A program made the position numbers and the translations under genes. From Barnesiella sp. (GTDB lineage: Bacteria; Bacteroidota; Bacteroidia; Bacteroidales; Muribaculaceae): a stretch of 54,775 nucleotides of DNA. The notes beneath the pieces are model-generated. The model saw only the letters and a list, made by a program, of their open reading frames with translations, was not told the origin of the DNA and did not search any database. Where the stretch lies: the NCBI GenBank assembly GCA_014800945.1, contig JAAVFD010000020.1:1-54775 (forward strand). The letters are read 5' to 3'. This document shows, piece after piece, positions 3,033 to 29,432 of the stretch; position 1 is the first letter of the stretch, and every line of letters begins with the position of its first letter.

Positions 3033-5468
3033 TTAATTGCTGACACCATCGGCTGTCCTTATAGCTCTCACCCTCAGCTTCTGAGTCCTCAAAGTCCTCC
3101 CCCCGTTCGGGTAATTAATTGAAGAATAGTCACCCGACACATAATCACCCGTAACTTCAGAGTCCGATGTGGAACTTGGATAAGCTGCAACTGCGTTTGT
3201 GACTTCACTAAGAAGGAAACTGCCTGAGACATATTTAGCTGCTCTTGCTCTGTAGGGATTCTCGTGAGCGTATATAGTTCCAAAACTACCGCCACCCGAC
3301 ATTGTTCGATTAGGATTTCGGGCTGTATTCGCTGTCCAATAATATTGCTCTTTATACCCCGGTATCCTCTTTATCATTTCCTCAGCCTGACTTACACTTG
3401 GAAGAAACCATTTTAAGGATTGGGAACCTGAAACAGACCTTTTATTTTTTGAACATGCGAGAACAACAGCCGTATTTGGGCTTATCGAAGCATATATCTG
3501 CCTGAGAGACAAGGTTGGTAGATTATATCCTGAGTATGATTCATAACCCATCAAATACCTACAGATAGCAGCACCATCTCCTGAATGAATAACATCAACA
3601 GGTTTCCAGCTAAAATTTCCTGCTATCAACTGGTACCATGTGGCAGATGCCTCGGATAGAGCTTTATTCTCCAATCCGCTACCTTCTGCAGCCCAGGGGA
3701 TACCGTCGGGTGAGTAATTTCCGGATTCACCGTGTGGATCAAGCGGGTCGTAGTGCATTGCATACTCCTCATAGGCTTCCATATAATAGGTCGTGCCATT
3801 GTAAGTAAACGGCAGCAGCCCCGCCTGTTCAATCTCGATATAGTCGGTGCGCTCCTCAGTGGCAGACTTATAATGAATCTCCACGCGACTCATTCTCGGC
3901 TTTGTAGAAGCGTTTTCATCCACATAAAAGTAGATTCTGTCGCGGCTGCGGGTAACAGTAGCTGCGGTATTCGGCACTAATTCCCACATATTTTCAGTGA
4001 AATAGTCCTTGCAGCCCCAGCCGGCTACAAACTGCTCGTCCGTCATCCCCTCCGAGCTGCAATGATCCAGGTGAATCCAATCCCTGTCCTGCTCCGGAAT
4101 AGTGACAGTGCATTCGCCGGATGCTCCACCAAGAAAATACACGTCCATCGGCAGTACGCACCAGTGCGCGTCAAGGTGACGCTCGTTGAGAACAGAGATA
4201 TACATTTCATTGTAAGTCTCCACATTAACTCTCGCGTCAAAAGTGACATAGCTGTCATTCGGGCTGATATTATTGAGACCGCGAATGTAAATATTGTTCT
4301 TATAGCAGTGGTTGCGACGCACCTCAAAATTGTCAATCACATCGCTACCGAGATAAACGGTAAATTCAGCCTTATAATTAAACCCTTGGTGGTCAACATA
4401 CTCACCCTTCATCACAAAGGCACTCGCATTGCCATCAGCTACCAGCGGTTTCCACCGCTGACGCACATCCTCGCCCATGCTCTTCACCGCCTCCGGATAA
4501 ATTTCCTGCGGGTCGCGAGTGCGCAAACGCACATTCTCGTAAGTATAATAGGTGAATATAGCAGACTCCTGCCCCTCGATAATGTCACGGTCATCCACCC
4601 TCACGGTTTTCTCCTTGATAATCTCGGCGGGCGACACCTCCGAAGCAGCCCCCTCGGCGATTTCTGTAAACGGCACACAGTCAGGCATATTCTTAACACC
4701 ATATTCCGTCACCTTCAGAGTGGGGAAAAGATGATCCTCACTGGTTTCCTCGGGGCTCAGCTTCACAACCACATCAACACGAGCCATCAGCGCGCGCATA
4801 TTAAGCTGAATCTGCCCCTCGTGTGACAGAATCTTGGAATCGCCGGCAGGAGCGGTGAAATGTGCAAACATGGGCATCCCTCCGTCCGGCAGTGCGGTAA
4901 TATCCTCTCTCGGAGCGGGACGGTAATACCATCCGAGCAGATCATCAAGACAGGTTATGGTTTTCTCCGCCGCCGGGTCGGCTTTGTCTCCGTGGCATAT
5001 ATGTCCGTCCGGATTCAGCCCCTCCACCCTGAAAGAGCAGTCGGTGTGGTCGCACTCCGCGCTATTGCAGATAGGGTTAGCAATGGCAACAATGTGCACT
5101 CCTTCGAGATTCTGCTGATTGACAAAGGCATTTTTCGGCACAACAACTGCTGTTGCACCGCTGCTTGCAAGGTCAACGATATGGTAAGCTCCGAAAGGCT
5201 CCTCGCATTGAGGATCTGGTGTGAGAAAATTGCCATCCTTGTCAAAAAAGAACAGATGGAGGCGATTTATTTTCTTCTCCTCCGCTTTCTTGGGCTCTGA
5301 GCCGGCTCTTGATGATACGATCTGCGGCAGCATATCCACCGCCTGAGCGGTAATGGTTATCGAGGAAACTGCCTCCGGCACTTCCGGTGCCAGAGTGTCA
5401 TTGCTGCATGAAACTGCTGAAACAGCAACCGCGGCAAGCCCTAATATGTGTTTGAAAAACCGATTCAT
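3033..5468 (-). CDS. DUF4906-type pilus tip or adhesin-like lipoprotein
   Basis: 811 residues from the ATG at 5468; the earlier possible start overlaps the previous gene and has no signal. The lipobox ends at Cys21. A Ser-Ser-Arg-Ala motif at Arg54 matches the processing site of type V pilins. The N-terminal half has fimbrillin/DUF4906 features (LHLFFFDKDGNFL, then a long beta region ending around FDARVNVETYNE). A middle block around residues 440-560 resembles a BACON or Ig-like domain, and the C-terminal 200 or so residues carry a Fib-succ-major/C-type-lectin-like pattern (KWFLPSVSQAEEM, YYWTANTA, RVRAIRT). It is the last and largest gene of the operon, the usual place of a tip adhesin. The ligand is unknown. 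Confidence 0.7.
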   Translation of the reverse strand: MNRFFKHILGLAAVAVSAVSCSNDTLAPEVPEAVSSITITAQAVDMLPQIVSSRAGSEPKKAEEKKINRLHLFFFDKDGNFLTPDPQCEEPFGAYHIVDLASSGATAVVVPKNAFVNQQNLEGVHIVAIANPICNSAECDHTDCSFRVEGLNPDGHICHGDKADPAAEKTITCLDDLLGWYYRPAPREDITALPDGGMPMFAHFTAPAGDSKILSHEGQIQLNMRALMARVDVVVKLSPEETSEDHLFPTLKVTEYGVKNMPDCVPFTEIAEGAASEVSPAEIIKEKTVRVDDRDIIEGQESAIFTYYTYENVRLRTRDPQEIYPEAVKSMGEDVRQRWKPLVADGNASAFVMKGEYVDHQGFNYKAEFTVYLGSDVIDNFEVRRNHCYKNNIYIRGLNNISPNDSYVTFDARVNVETYNEMYISVLNERHLDAHWCVLPMDVYFLGGASGECTVTIPEQDRDWIHLDHCSSEGMTDEQFVAGWGCKDYFTENMWELVPNTAATVTRSRDRIYFYVDENASTKPRMSRVEIHYKSATEERTDYIEIEQAGLLPFTYNGTTYYMEAYEEYAMHYDPLDPHGESGNYSPDGIPWAAEGSGLENKALSEASATWYQLIAGNFSWKPVDVIHSGDGAAICRYLMGYESYSGYNLPTLSLRQIYASISPNTAVVLACSKNKRSVSGSQSLKWFLPSVSQAEEMIKRIPGYKEQYYWTANTARNPNRTMSGGGSFGTIYAHENPYRARAAKYVSGSFLLSEVTNAVAAYPSSTSDSEVTGDYVSGDYSSINYPNGGRTLRTQKLRVRAIRTADGVSN

Positions 5469-21959: not shown

Positions 21960-22007
21960 GAGATACACCTTATTATATAGATTATATAGGCTGTTCCGGT
22001 CAAGCAT

Positions 22008-22050
22008 AAAAAACAAACGGATTGTCATCGCGACAATCCGTTTGTTTTTT
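22008..22050 (+). terminator. Strong terminator after the M49 peptidase gene
   Basis: A perfect 19-bp stem (22008-22026 with 22032-22050) closes a 5-base loop. The stem ends in A6 on one side and T6 on the other, so it should terminate in both directions. Confidence 0.95.
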
Positions 22051-22184
22051 AACCTTAAATCTAATACCATGAAAAAACACAGTGCAAATATAGTAATTAT
22101 ACACTTAGAACATTCTGTAAACAGTATGGTTCACCCACTTCATCGTATTAACACGCTTTAACTAAATTTATCTATACTCTATTG

Positions 22185-25064: not shown

Positions 25065-26903
25065 ATGACATATCCGCGACCGATAGAGCTACTCGCCCCC
25101 GCAAAGAATGCCGAAACAGCCATTGAAGCCATAAAGCATGGCGCCGACGCCATCTACATTGGAGCACCGACAAATGGAGCAAGAGCTGCGGCAGCAAATT
25201 CCATCGCAGACATAAAATCTGTTGTGCAATTCGCTCATCTTTTCAACGCACGTGTTTATGTTACAGTCAATACCATCATTTACGACCACGAACTTAAAGC
25301 TGTTGAAAAAATGATTCAGGAGCTTTACAAGATCGGTGTTGACGCAATCATTGTGCAGGATATGGCGGTGCTGAATATGAACATACCGCCCATAGCTCTC
25401 CACGCAAGCACGCAATGCGACACCCGCACTCCGGATAAAGCCAAGTTTCTCGAAGCCGCCGGCTTCAGCCAGATAGTTCCGGCAAGAGAACTGACAATAG
25501 AAGAGACAGCTGCAATATGCTCAGCGGTTAACGTACCGGTGGAAGTATTTGTACATGGCGCGCTATGCGTCAGCTATAGCGGAGCATGCTATGCCAGCCT
25601 CGCCACTACCGGAAGGAGCGCCAACCGTGGCGAGTGCGCCCAATTGTGCCGACTACCCTACACCTTATTTGATAAGGACGGCAAAGAGCTGATAAAGAAC
25701 CGCCATCTGCTGTCACTCAAAGACCTTAACCGTATTGCCGATATTGAAAAGCTACTTACCGCCGGCGTTACATCTTTCAAAATCGAAGGCAGACTAAAGG
25801 ACGTAAATTATGTAAAAAATGTGGTAGCAGCTTATCGCGAAGCCATTGACTCCATTATAAAAGCTAATCCCGAGCTCTACACTCGGGCAAGTTCCGGAAC
25901 CTCACGGCTTACATTCACACCAGACCTCAGCAAAAGCTTCAACAGAGGCTTCACCGGATATTTCACCGGCAGTCCACAGCCATCAACAAAAATAGCATCT
26001 TTCAATTCACCCAAATGGATAGGCGAGAAAATCGGCACCGTCCGTTCATCTTCCCCAAGCAGCTTAATCATCAACACCCGCGAAACAATAAACAACGGTG
26101 ACGGACTCGGATACTTTGACACGGATGGAAAATTCTGCGGATTCAGAGTCAACAAAGCCGAAGGAGGGAAAATCTACCCTGCAACTCCTGTCAGCCTCTC
26201 TCCAGGCACAGAAATATTCAGAAACAACAATAAGAGCTGGAATGACAAGCTGAGTGCAGACACCGCAACCCGGACTCTTGACATTGAAATAACGCTCCGG
26301 GTAAAGCCGGACCTTGTTATCATAGACATTAAAGATGAGGACGGCAACACTCTCACAGCCACTGCACCTGCAGAAATTTTCCCCGCTGCAAAACCACAGG
26401 AAACACGGCAGAATGAGATACTCGCAAAAACCGGAGCGACAATATATAAGGTTGTAAAAATCACCAACCTTGCCGCCGGAATGTTCATACCATCGTCTAT
26501 CCTGACAAACCTAAGAAGAGATGCATTGGAGAAGCTTGACAAACTGAGGCTAAACAACCATAAATACACCTACCGCCTACCGGCCAAACCTGATGTCAGA
26601 AAATTCATCGAAGGCAAGACACTATCTGCCGGCGAAAATATTTCAAACGCCATTGCAGAGAAATTTTACCGTGACCTCGGAGCAAAAGCCGCCTCCAAAG
26701 CCTTTGAATGCAATAAAAACAGCATTAAAAAGGGCACTCCCCTCATGACTACACGCTACTGCCTGCGGCGCGAGTGCGGCAAATGCCTCAAAACACCGGA
26801 GGGAGCTCAATGGAAAGCTCCTCTCACCATTAAATCCGGCAACTACACTTTCGCGCTCACTTTTGACTGTGCCAACTGCCGCATGAACGTCAACCACACA
26901 TAG
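25065..26903 (+). CDS. U32 family peptidase-like protein (RlhA/TrhP-type RNA hydroxylation)
   Basis: 612 residues. The N-terminal 300 residues hold the U32 fold: E-L-L-A-P-A-K-N-A-E-T, G-A-D-A-I-Y-I-G, and the signature E-V-F-V-H-G-A-L-C-V-S-Y-S-G-A-C, plus Cys-rich G-E-C-A-Q-L-C-R. The family is annotated as a collagenase-like peptidase, but characterised members make 5-hydroxycytidine or 5-hydroxyuridine in rRNA or tRNA; which one applies here is not evident. The C-terminal third carries a cysteine cluster (R-E-C-G-K-C-L, D-C-A-N-C-R) that could hold an iron-sulfur or zinc centre. The long form is normal in Bacteroidota. It has its own promoter and leader. Confidence 0.85.
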   Translation: MTYPRPIELLAPAKNAETAIEAIKHGADAIYIGAPTNGARAAAANSIADIKSVVQFAHLFNARVYVTVNTIIYDHELKAVEKMIQELYKIGVDAIIVQDMAVLNMNIPPIALHASTQCDTRTPDKAKFLEAAGFSQIVPARELTIEETAAICSAVNVPVEVFVHGALCVSYSGACYASLATTGRSANRGECAQLCRLPYTLFDKDGKELIKNRHLLSLKDLNRIADIEKLLTAGVTSFKIEGRLKDVNYVKNVVAAYREAIDSIIKANPELYTRASSGTSRLTFTPDLSKSFNRGFTGYFTGSPQPSTKIASFNSPKWIGEKIGTVRSSSPSSLIINTRETINNGDGLGYFDTDGKFCGFRVNKAEGGKIYPATPVSLSPGTEIFRNNNKSWNDKLSADTATRTLDIEITLRVKPDLVIIDIKDEDGNTLTATAPAEIFPAAKPQETRQNEILAKTGATIYKVVKITNLAAGMFIPSSILTNLRRDALEKLDKLRLNNHKYTYRLPAKPDVRKFIEGKTLSAGENISNAIAEKFYRDLGAKAASKAFECNKNSIKKGTPLMTTRYCLRRECGKCLKTPEGAQWKAPLTIKSGNYTFALTFDCANCRMNVNHT

Positions 26904-27001
26904 CCTCCAATACCATACACCCAGCCATAGATGCGTTGGAGGTGGTCAACCTCACATATTGCCGCTTACCCGCATTGTGCAACGCGCAGCCCTATTGCAC
27001 A
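26904..27001. repeat. Inverted repeats between the U32 gene and the RNA promoter
   Basis: Three hairpins or inverted repeats occur in this stretch: CCTCCAA (26904-26910) with TTGGAGG (26936-26942); GAGGT (26939-26943) with ACCTC (26949-26953), which competes with the first; and TGTGCAA (26976-26982) with TTGCACA (26995-27001). The third spans the -33 region of the next promoter and could be an operator. None has a good U-tract for a terminator. Confidence 0.55.
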
Positions 27002-27025
27002 CTATCACAATTATATATAACTTTG
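26994..27025 (+). promoter_or_regulatory. Promoter of the structured RNA
   Basis: ATTG (26994-26997), 20 bases, TAACTTTG (27018-27025). The -7 element matches TAnnTTTG exactly and the -33 element has one mismatch. The next ATG of a credible gene is over 400 bases away, so the promoter seems to serve the RNA in between. Confidence 0.7.
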
Positions 27026-27031
27026 CAATCG

Positions 27032-27392
27032 CAGACCGCTTGGACCACGCCTGTAGGGTGAGGTTCTTAACCGAGCCAACCCCCGGTCCGGGGATTGAGG
27101 GCGGGATGTGACATACATAGAAAGCGTTTATCCGCGCTGATTCTTGACACTCTGAAATGTCTCGCAAACTTTTCTTATCTATGTCAAGGATTGAGCAACG
27201 GTAGATGCCCGTGGATATGTAAGATATCGGCAACTCCTATGGTGACATGATGTATCATGTCCGCCTGAGTCCGTCATATTATTGCATATACAGGCGTGGG
27301 CTTCTGCGTTACCGTCCGACATCTAAAGGGCAATGCGAGAAGCCTCGATTCGTAGGACGGTAACAGATACAGATTCCTACGCTTTTTGTTTT
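27032..27392 (+). ncRNA. Candidate free-standing structured RNA of about 360 bases, family unknown
   Basis: This is not a convincing protein gene: the longest open frame is 38 codons. Stems visible by hand include CCCCG/CGGGG (27081-27093 region), an ATAG/CTAT plus TGAC/GTCA arm pairing near 27109-27120 with 27177-27185, GACA/TGTC (27146-27161 region), a GCC-GATAT/ATATC-GGC hairpin (27207-27231), a perfect 7-bp GACATGA/TCATGTC hairpin with a 4-base loop (27244-27261), and CGCCTG/CAGGCG (27262-27267 with 27291-27296). At the 3' end GGCTTCT (27299-27305) pairs AGAAGCC (27338-27344), interleaved with a perfect 10-bp pair (27308-27317 with 27355-27364), giving a pseudoknot. CGTAGG/CCTACG (27351-27356 with 27376-27381) before the U-run ends it. 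I see no tmRNA tag or tRNA-like ends, no RNase P core motif, and it is too long for 6S RNA. Confidence 0.7.
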
Positions 27393-27395
27393 TTT
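27351..27395 (+). terminator. 3' terminator hairpin of the structured RNA
   Basis: CGTAGG (27351-27356) pairs with CCTACG (27376-27381), or GCGTGGG (27294-27300) pairs with CCTACGC (27376-27382), followed by C and a U-run broken by one G (27383-27395). The two pairings exclude each other, and the first overlaps two bases of the pseudoknot. Confidence 0.6.
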
Positions 27396-27439
27396 ATAGA
27401 CGCCAACGAGGGGAAGACCGCGGCACAAAAAAAAACATT

Positions 27440-27871
27440 ATGAAGATCTTATTAATTTACGGCGAACAAGACGCCGGAAAAACCACAGTGTGCAAGCGAG
27501 TATTTTCTGCACTAAAAGGTTTGGGAGCTACCCTCAATTATTACGAACTGTTTCCGTGGGGAGATGATTTCAAAGCAATTTTTACCGTAAATGGTATCAA
27601 AATCGGCATCTCTTCCGCCGGTGACTCAAAGCAACTTATAGCCGATGCGAGACAGTTCGGACAGGAAAATGGATGTGATATTTTAGTTGGAGCGGTAAGA
27701 TATCATACCCATTACAACGAGGTATTTACTGATCTCACCTGCAATAAAGATTTTTTCTGGCTCGAGTTTAGCAAAGGTGAAGTAACCGATGAAGAAAAGG
27801 ATAAGCGCGGGTTTATTATGGCACTTGAAGTCCTTAGTAAAATCAAAGAAAATCTAAATTTCTGCTATTGA
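27440..27871 (+). CDS. Small P-loop NTPase-like protein
   Basis: 143 residues from the ATG at 27440 (an upstream frame start would sit inside the RNA terminator). A Walker A motif is at residues 8-16 (G-E-Q-D-A-G-K-T-T). After it comes a strand I-G-I-S-S-A-G-D, which could serve as a Walker B-like or switch motif, and C-D-I-L-V-G-A-V-R. The layout resembles short uncharacterised P-loop proteins of Bacteroidota. No partner domain is present, so the activity is unknown. It starts about 45 bases after the structured RNA and five bases before the lipoprotein gene. Confidence 0.6.
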   Translation: MKILLIYGEQDAGKTTVCKRVFSALKGLGATLNYYELFPWGDDFKAIFTVNGIKIGISSAGDSKQLIADARQFGQENGCDILVGAVRYHTHYNEVFTDLTCNKDFFWLEFSKGEVTDEEKDKRGFIMALEVLSKIKENLNFCY

Positions 27872-27876
27872 TAACA

Positions 27877-29337
27877 ATGAAAACGCTTAAAAAACTTATG
27901 AAAGTGATGGCTATTATGATGTGCGTAATAGCCATGAACAGCTGCGATGACGGTCCTGACTACGGAAAGATGCGCGTATCGCGAATGGATATTGTAGGTG
28001 CCAAAGCTGTCGGATTCATTGACGCTGACAATAATTCTCGCGGTGAAGCAATCTCATCAGGACTCTACAAAATCGATGCCGACGGAAATATCACCGCAGT
28101 AGCAGTCTATTTCACCGAAGATGAGAGCGGCAATCAGTCCAAGCACGAATCTGAAGTTAAATTGGAATATGCAGTCATGCATGATGTCTGCAACGACTTT
28201 ATCTATTTTACTGGTTGTCATTTTGTAGATAAAAAAGGAGAGTGGATCGAAGAGCTTCCCTATCATATTTTAGTTCGCAAATCTGACGGCAAAATGTGGA
28301 ACCTTGATGAAAAAGCATGTGGACTTAATATTTATAACTTTGAAGACTGGCAATTTTTCCAGTCCTACGACGGCACTTTGTATTATGCCCCTTATAATAG
28401 TTATAATGGGATAGTTGGTAACATCTACAAGTTTGACCTAAAAACCGAACCGGCAACAATTCAACAAGTGACAGCAAATATAAAACTTTACCCACCATAC
28501 GCAGTTGATTCTAAAGGAGTTATTTGTGCCCCAGTTAATGAATTTGAAAATCATCGACATCCAATTACAATAGCATGGCCTAACTCCGGATTTCAAGAAT
28601 TTGAGAGTGTAAGTACAGCCCGCACTGACTACAGTGATCAAGTTGAAGGTTTGGTAATTGAACCGAGTGATTATTGTTCTGTTGTCTGCTTCCGGGGTCA
28701 GTTCTATCAGTTAGGGGCATATTCATATAAAAGTAATATATCAGAATACCCGTTTGTTGATTTGGCAACCTGCAATAAGATTTTGATTGGAGACACACCC
28801 GGCAGCGCGAGTGTGGACGTATCTGAAACAATCAATCTCAAAAATGACATTCTTGCCAACAGTGGTTTCTATGACCCAGAATATCATTCATCAATTATGG
28901 TTACACCGGACTATATCCTTTTATCCACAAGACTTCCTAAAGATTACCATGGAGGATATAAATGTTGGATTTCAGCCCTCAACCCTGAGAAGAAAGAGTG
29001 GAAATGGATTACCGAGACCACTGTTTTTATATCATTTGATGATAGTATATTTTATAATAACCGCTATTGGAGCATCACTAAGCAGGATGGTGCATTGGGT
29101 GCATTCTGGTTCCACCCCGGTTCATTCGAATCAGGCTTTATCAAGTTCAACGTCACCTTACCTGACTATATAGATTCATCAAAGTATAAAGCAGTTGACG
29201 GCAAAGTAATCTACTCCGGCATTAATCCTGCCGATTCACACCTTGTAAAGGTGGTGGTAGATCTTATGACCGGTGATGCAATCACCAACGACGAAGCACC
29301 GGAAATGCTCTTCTCAACACTGATTTCGCTCAACTAA
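27877..29337 (+). CDS. Lipoprotein, function unknown
   Basis: 486 residues from the ATG at 27877. The lipoprotein signal ends at Cys23 (A-M-N-S-C-D-D). The rest has no motif I recognise; repeated Trp/Tyr-rich strands (for example L-Y-Y-A-P-Y-N-S-Y-N-G) about every 40-50 residues suggest a beta-propeller-like surface protein. Codon use in the middle is more AT-rich than the neighbours, which may point to a more recent acquisition. It is the last gene before a strong terminator and probably shares a transcript with the P-loop gene. Confidence 0.6.
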   Translation: MKTLKKLMKVMAIMMCVIAMNSCDDGPDYGKMRVSRMDIVGAKAVGFIDADNNSRGEAISSGLYKIDADGNITAVAVYFTEDESGNQSKHESEVKLEYAVMHDVCNDFIYFTGCHFVDKKGEWIEELPYHILVRKSDGKMWNLDEKACGLNIYNFEDWQFFQSYDGTLYYAPYNSYNGIVGNIYKFDLKTEPATIQQVTANIKLYPPYAVDSKGVICAPVNEFENHRHPITIAWPNSGFQEFESVSTARTDYSDQVEGLVIEPSDYCSVVCFRGQFYQLGAYSYKSNISEYPFVDLATCNKILIGDTPGSASVDVSETINLKNDILANSGFYDPEYHSSIMVTPDYILLSTRLPKDYHGGYKCWISALNPEKKEWKWITETTVFISFDDSIFYNNRYWSITKQDGALGAFWFHPGSFESGFIKFNVTLPDYIDSSKYKAVDGKVIYSGINPADSHLVKVVVDLMTGDAITNDEAPEMLFSTLISLN

Positions 29338-29384
29338 ACGCTAATGGCTATCGGTAAACCGACCGACACCAAAGCTACCCCACT

Positions 29385-29416
29385 ACGGGCTGCCCCTCGG
29401 CAGTCCGTATTTTTTT
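29385..29416 (+). terminator. Terminator after the lipoprotein gene
   Basis: A 10-bp stem (29385-29394 with 29399-29408, one G-U pair) with a 4-base loop is followed by A and seven Ts. Confidence 0.9.
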
Positions 29417-29432
29417 GCTTGCCGTCAATTAT

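Follow-up and report, generated by a model that had tools for sequence, protein, structure and literature searches.

A leader RNA with two competing predicted folds and hypervariable pairing arms ahead of accessory genes in Bacteroidales, most likely a transcription attenuator

What kind of RNA lies at 27026–27395 of the window (the whole stretch of 54,775 nucleotides analysed here), and does it stand alone or belong to a gene? The initial annotation described a free-standing structured RNA with a promoter, several hairpins, a terminal U-tract and no convincing protein. The RNA is indeed structured: the folding energy of 27026–27395 has z = -3.6, and 0 of 100 shuffled sequences folded as well. 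It is not free-standing, as homology passes the U-tract to about 27425 in many copies and a gene begins with an ATG at 27440. We therefore treat it as a leader RNA of about 400 nt that extends from a promoter past a terminator-like U-tract as far as a hairpin that precedes the ATG of a small P-loop protein gene. Its parts and surroundings are as follows.

26895–29423 (+): accessory insertion made up of the RNA and both genes, absent here in four relatives and present in G001
26995–27025 (+): Bacteroidetes-type promoter read from the sequence, with TTG at 26995–26997 and the -7 box TAACTTTG at 27018–27025
27026–27123 (+): 5′ domain, from the fold, with GACCGC (27034–27039) facing GGCGGG (27100–27105)
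about 27043–27077 (+): optional 5′ insert of about 32 nt, containing CCACGCCTGTA (27045–27055)
27124–27210 (+): A arm, from GCGUUUAUC to GCAACGGUAGAUGCCC, delimited by alignment A3 and pair counts
27141–27146 with 27185–27190 (+): P_A, local hairpin of the A arm
27147–27155 and 27177–27185 (+): variable segments x and y of the A arm
27160–27166 (+): core of the A arm, UCUCGCA
27215–27289 (+): P3, whose stem (27215–27222 with 27282–27289) closes a sequence-variable hairpin that includes 27244–27261
27294–27382 (+): B arm and putative terminator hairpin, with the closing stem 27294–27300 with 27376–27382
27308–27317 with 27355–27364 (+): P_B, local hairpin of the B arm, from pair counts
27318–27326, 27334–27340 and 27345–27353 (+): segments y′, core′ and x′ of the B arm
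27383–27395 (+): U-tract, terminator-like site, with one G at 27388; a T-run follows the closing stem in the aligned copies
27402–27424 (+): post-terminator hairpin GCC-AACGAGGGGAAGACCGC-GGC, conserved in copies of the window's type
27440–27871 (+): RNA-led orphan P-loop protein gene (143 aa, GEQDAGKTT)
27877–29337 (+): second gene of the unit, with no Pfam match above cut-off

A leader RNA ahead of unrelated accessory genes

The proposed promoter recurs in most copies of the RNA. We identified the -7 box and TTG of the window by what we take to be the Bacteroidetes promoter consensus, and TAnnTTTG lies 25–190 nt upstream of the conserved GCGUUUA in 159 of 173 copies, compared with 8% of 2000 random positions. 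At the other end, the claimed U-tract follows directly on a GC-rich stem that ends at 27382. The statement that the unit holds no convincing protein was not supported by comparison across copies: in 139 of the 166 copies with enough sequence, an ATG-started open reading frame (ORF) of 60 codons or more has its start no further than 110 nt from the U-tract (median distance 56 nt), compared with 29.8% of random control positions. The RNA appears to be a 5′ leader, placed directly before a protein-coding gene and on the same strand.

No recognised family was detected for the leader, as the initial annotation had supposed. We found no Rfam 15 match at gathering score that overlapped the leader RNA anywhere in the window, and none that overlapped the RNA in 18 related loci (18 of the stretches found with the pattern described below). 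A search of 26900–27500 with E values up to 10 returned nothing but a 15-bit snoRNA match (E 1.7). ARAGORN detected 0 tRNA or tmRNA genes in the window, in keeping with the earlier exclusion of a tmRNA. The window's only Rfam match at gathering score lies elsewhere, at 22007–22080 (−), and is a copy of the paralogous small RNA FopS (RF04319; 66.5 bits).

The expectation that the RNA would be conserved in Bacteroidales was borne out. In a DNA search 47 of 101 related genomes gave matches, often at more than one site per genome, and a 19-base pattern from the 3′ half of the RNA gave at least 115 stretches. Because these stretches were found with a B-arm pattern, the conservation of that part of the B arm reflects how they were selected; the pattern does not extend to the segments x, y, x′ and y′. 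Among the matches listed, with 80 titles, all but four name Bacteroidales taxa, including three candidate genera that we presume to belong to this order. The four others are titled Pseudoflavonifractor (L056), Solimonas (L071), uncultured bacterium (L117) and Clostridiales (L120). The first of these titles may be wrong, and the Solimonas stretch lacks the rest of the B arm and is a chance match. Named isolates among the carriers include Paraprevotella clara, Hallella mizrahii, Barnesiella sp. WM24, Phocaeicola oris and Duncaniella muris; no A arm could be parsed in the D. muris stretch (L083).

We built a covariance model, R1, from 68 sequences of the 3′ half of the RNA. It matches the window at 27285–27387 with 107.9 bits, a score to which the window's own copy contributed as one of the sequences used to build the model. 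In the window's own genome R1 gave 16 matches, of which 13 are genuine copies and three are shadows on the opposite strand. At E values up to 0.001 it matched 34 of 37 sampled genomes of the window's family, with 1 to 17 matches each, and 38 of 61 genomes in the whole sample of relatives, in which most genomes are at least 90% complete and the matches were inspected in part. At E values up to 1e-6, it matched 35 of 256 genomes in a sample of the order (own genome included) and, in a sample of 218 genomes of the phylum, the own genome alone and 0 of the other 217; both samples were run with stricter filters, at which weak matches are lost. BLAST comparison with plasmid and phage collections gave no match to the leader. 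The pattern had a sole match in the viral collection, an IMG/VR contig (L162) in which the RNA leads a gene with strong matches to EF-Tu.

The genes that follow the RNA are unrelated to each other. Among 114 downstream proteins we counted 58 Pfam families, the commonest of which, the BspA-type LRR_5, accounts for 15. No shared pathway was visible among the 25 commonest families. This set comprises 114 of 116 references (L134 and one of L136 were left out), excludes L002, L103 and ORFs shorter than 60 aa or more than 130 nt away, and holds proteins cut at 400 aa. We also considered a role in defence and rejected it, with one of the 114 proteins matching PADLOC (AbiGi). By a simple hydrophobicity rule, export was predicted for 48 of 72 RNA-led proteins of at least 180 aa and for 139 of 478 control ORFs, which were chosen mechanically and may include non-genes.

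The window's own unit shows the same association of RNA and gene. The P-loop protein has 10 matching places in 34 genomes of the genus (the window's included), and in nine of these the B arm of the RNA lies directly upstream; Pfam gave only sub-threshold AAA-type matches for it. The second gene has an N-terminus that we take to be lipoprotein-like. On either side of the insertion lie what we presume to be a U32-peptidase-like gene and galE. We checked for an empty site at five loci (L260–L264) of the 12 other genomes with matches. In G010 and G020 the matches to window positions 26891/26893 and 29423/29424 lie 2–3 bases apart, so the 2.5-kb block of RNA and two genes is missing there. The two flanking genes are also adjacent in G028 and G025, and the block is present in G001, which is 96% identical over the piece compared. 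For two further copies in the window's genome, the upstream flanks are conserved in relatives to about 100–250 nt before the RNA and then diverge, so that only the window's empty site is clear. A separate intergenic repeat of about 60 bp (TCCGATTCCTCGGAATTTTCCGAAT...) occurs at 4500–4570 of L031 and in 13 other places in the window's genome, and in three cases (C6, C12, C23) it lies a few hundred bases before a leader copy.

Covariation and energies of two competing folds

The leader consists of the arms A and B around the variable hairpin P3. Each arm folds on itself, A into P_A, and B into P_B and a closing stem that adjoins the U-tract. A is also complementary to most of B. We assessed both arrangements in alignment A3, which holds 70 type-1 copies chosen from 187 sequences so that none are more than 95% alike. 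RNAalifold on the 70 copies picks the A:B duplex, with 58 pairs. In this duplex 98.5% of cells are paired, 18 of the 58 pairs show double changes, and covariation is 0.292 compared with 0.109 when shuffled (0 of 500) and at most 0.058 in slid controls. A combined model made up of P_A, P_B, the closing stem and P3 together with x, core and y has 97.4% of cells paired, double changes in 22 of 56 pairs and covariation of 0.322 compared with 0.128 when shuffled. Of the results named at the outset as speaking against the RNA, neither a strong Rfam match nor an absence of covariation was observed; covariation across the homologous copies is very strong.

The local stems differ in how much they vary. 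P_B alone has double changes in four of its 10 pairs, most of them beyond what A:B pairing accounts for; not all of this signal is independent, because column 270 of P_B shows covariation with the A arm as well (four cells). P3 has 91.8% of cells paired and double changes in three of eight pairs. No pair of P_A or the closing stem has double changes in the type-1 alignment, and altered P_A stems are seen by eye in more distant copies. The core, UCUCGCA:UGCGAGA, is invariant in type-1 copies save for one gap and is swapped as a matched pair in other copies, for example CCUGGAA with UUCCAGG. Across all helices we counted 332 G-U against 35 A-C combinations (211 against 3 in P_A, P_B and the closing stem; 48 against 24 in x, core and y), an excess that argues for selection on the transcribed strand folding as RNA.

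Predicted energies place the two folds close together. The unconstrained minimum free energy (MFE) fold holds half or more of each of x, core and y in 62 of the 70 copies; when the span is limited, P_B and the closing stem are present in 62 and P_A in 69. The free fold is better, with a mean difference of -6.0 kcal/mol over the 70 copies, where differences of a few kcal/mol are within model error. The gain depends on each copy's own arms: it falls below -1 in 65 of 70 native copies and in 9 of 280 combinations in which B halves were swapped between copies. Taken together, these results support two competing folds, a series of local hairpins that closes with the putative terminator and an A:B duplex of 58 pairs. 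Prediction and covariation thus suggest what marks an attenuator, a 5′ leader in which a terminator-like fold and an alternative fold exclude each other.

These folds also change how some features noted earlier are read. Many inverted repeats are present, as the proposed series of hairpins implied. The hairpin at 27244–27261, described as a perfect 7-bp one, exists and was counted here as an 8-bp repeat, but of the parts compared it lies in the one with the lowest conservation (mean pairwise identity 0.47). The supposed long 3′ pseudoknot is probably better read as the competing pairings of one segment. Past the U-tract, many other copies have a hairpin analogous to that of the window, with a loop that matches the 3′ arm of the terminator hairpin. 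This match was found at the cut-off in 79 of 174 copies, compared with 23% in cross-copy and 15% in shuffled comparisons; it is striking in single distant copies but not in the window's type, and moderately supported overall.

Hypervariable arms that remain matched within each copy

The segments x, y, x′ and y′ are only 55–58% identical between the 70 copies, whereas the core, P_A, P_B and the closing stem average 95%. An arm combination of its own was found in 65 of the 70 copies, a figure that is partly by choice because near-identical copies had been removed beforehand. We then scored arm matching in 130 parsed copies, more distant ones included (14 were unparsed, and copies without the GCGUUUA anchor were skipped). 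The score reaches 7 for x:x′ in 117 of the 130 copies and for y:y′ in 126, compared with 14% and 11% in between-copy controls and with 12 and 4 of the 130 for the wrong pairing within a copy; a few of the low x scores are parsing errors. In most copies the arms thus fit each other in such a way that two widely different folds come close in energy.

The same or nearly the same arm types precede different genes in different genera. In a set of 86 copies (88 of 93 in a companion analysis), both segments are shared in 1 of 378 within-genome pairs and in 10 of 3277 between-genome pairs, counts that are approximate because five x′ segments were wrongly delimited (L169, L170, L183, L188, L197). The two rarities are the same, and avoidance of shared arm types within genomes was not detected. 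One leader subclass (CGTGGGTCTTCTACTTTGC..., in L171, L202, L241 and L257) carries the same x′ (TCAAGACG) in several genomes, and precedes different genes where the gene was read.

The window's own copy departs from the rule. Its x′ and y′ match neither x nor y, and its free and local folds are equal, at -91.4, which leaves it with the local fold only. A:B pairing has been lost, and this copy would be locked in the local fold if the assembly is right. A near-identical relative, L002, is well matched and differs from the window in both x′ and y′, and B segments resembling those of the window occur in L023 (x′) and L031 (y′). The mismatch is perhaps a mosaic produced by gene conversion or an assembly chimera, explanations that we consider because the genome is a draft of 38 contigs, 82% complete, with many similar copies. 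Two further copies of the 70, L032:10791 and L149, gain nothing from A:B pairing.

A probable read-through switch, its alternatives and its relatives

We think that the 5′ leader of this accessory gene unit is probably an RNA switch over transcription read-through. Transcription would start near 27030, judging from the -7 box. In the first fold, the local row of P_A, P3 and the B hairpin, the closing stem set against the U-tract would terminate transcription. In the second, the A arm would join nearly all of the B arm to form a long, imperfect duplex; P_A, P_B and most of the closing stem would then be lost, and a 4-bp base stem would be left at the U-tract. Because most of the closing stem is opened, this fold should favour read-through into the gene and so act as an antiterminator; as it too ends in a short stem at the U-tract, it might also terminate. 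A signal that favours P_A, or that blocks the A arm, would tip the balance. We infer that some such signal exists, but the very mixed downstream gene families suggest no ligand or regulator. As the A arm is transcribed first, it could invade B while B is being made, so that read-through might be the default state as long as nothing holds P_A. The loop match to the terminator's 3′ arm suggests that the read-through transcript may refold too. Some copies have the 5′ insert and others do not; where it is present, its CCACGCC-type sequence could pair with the 5′ arm of the terminator hairpin, as in the window, where CCACGCCTGTA forms an 11-bp perfect inverted-repeat match to 27289–27299.

The same covariation could come from a single fold, in which P_A and P_B coexist and their loops kiss through x:x′, core:core′ and y:y′. 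This intramolecular loop-loop pseudoknot would make a compact aptamer or protein-binding platform, with ligand binding giving gene control. The slightly higher covariation of the combined model (0.322, 22 of 56 pairs) over the nested duplex (0.292, 18 of 58) speaks for it. We nevertheless find it doubtful: y and P_A share a column as modelled, and more if P_A is drawn with eight pairs, and full pairing of about 26 bp between two closed loops would be topologically awkward. The duplex also extends far past the loops (GCGU:ACGC, UAUC:GAUA, GCAACG:CGUUGC, GAUGCCC:GGGCUUC), although these outer pairs vary little and are a weak test of the nested model. A trans-acting small RNA with its 3′ end at the U-tract, to which the downstream gene is only a neighbour, would explain the terminator-like end, and FopS offers a precedent for a multicopy paralogous small RNA family of Bacteroidetes with a copy elsewhere in the window. 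It is an improbable account: an ORF starts close to the U-tract in 139 of 166 copies, the hairpin that separates U-tract from ATG has a loop that fits the 3′ arm of the terminator in 79 of 174 copies (against 23% across copies), and the P-loop gene is linked to the RNA in nine of 10 places.

Pairing might also serve the DNA rather than the RNA. Integron attC sites are imperfect palindromes with variable but paired arms, each with one diverse gene, and act as folded DNA; they come with arrays and an integrase and have no promoter or terminator of the leader's kind. The leader resembles them in its large imperfect palindrome, its variable but matched arms and the one diverse accessory gene behind each copy. 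A palindromic recombination site of the attC or MITE kind, mobilising accessory genes one at a time and with arms folding as single-stranded DNA, would fit this as well as the empty site in relatives and the same arm types before different genes. Such an element appears very unlikely to us. A DNA palindrome would lack strand preference, and the count of 332 G-U against 35 A-C points to pairing of one strand as RNA; a promoter motif lies upstream and a U-tract downstream, and the window's insertion reaches beyond the RNA-led gene to a second gene.

As an attenuator, the leader would be a device of a known kind, unusual in its hypervariable design. It shares with attenuator leaders and terminator riboswitches the position in a 5′ leader, a promoter, competing hairpins and an end like an intrinsic terminator before a gene. 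It differs from them in lacking an Rfam class, in its length of about 400 nt and in having several copies within a genome, which precede accessory genes that are unrelated. In riboswitches the aptamer is the part that is conserved, whereas the arms of the leader's alternative duplex are hypervariable between copies. CopA-CopT and RNAI-RNAII are antisense loops of plasmid copy control, in which kissing extends to a longer duplex. The leader is like them in keeping complementarity while the loop sequence diversifies, but has both partners in one RNA and is absent from the plasmid collection.

Comparative genomics has described other Bacteroidetes RNAs, among them the Bacteroidales-1, Bacteroides-1 and Bacteroid-trp motifs, listed with Rfam numbers in Weinberg 2010 (PMC2864571); the Rfam 15 library has no match to the leader. 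Bacteroides-2 stands without an Rfam number in the table of the same paper and so falls outside this comparison. BTncRNA_FopS (RF04319) is likewise a paralogous Bacteroidetes RNA family, but its 71-position model does not match the leader. We found no title or abstract describing the leader RNA in the literature searched (including PMC8040213 and PMC2864571); supplementary tables, preprints and subscription papers lay outside the search, and an earlier mention is possible. The leader is most likely an undescribed class of transcription-attenuator leader.

Within the attenuator reading, the variation of the pairing arms calls for an explanation, as changing arms with complementarity kept are unusual for a cis-acting RNA and raise the question of why the copies differ in sequence. 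The hypervariable arms might be addresses, a terminated leader pairing with a nascent leader of the same type and tipping its fold. This speculative extension, to which we give a small chance, fits the low identity of x and y beside 95% in the core, P_A, P_B and the closing stem and the single within-genome pair (of 378) that shares both segments; avoidance of cross-talk gains no support from the latter, because pairs between genomes share both just as rarely. If it were true, each accessory gene would sense its own or same-type transcripts and ignore the other copies in the cell (up to 17 matches per genome), and chromosomes would carry a set of self-recognition circuits made of RNA alone and orthogonal to one another, comparable to the incompatibility RNAs of plasmids.

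The accessory genes led by this RNA form a class that can be recognised by it; many belong to no family and export is predicted for many, and the leader therefore offers a handle on many unannotated genes. Two of them (L107, L111) encode Cys-rich peptides with an RRxFFK-type leader that resemble what we take to be precursors of peptide natural products. Three small RNA-led proteins (L223, L240, L258) have by eye the look of DNA-binding regulators, a possible clue to control.
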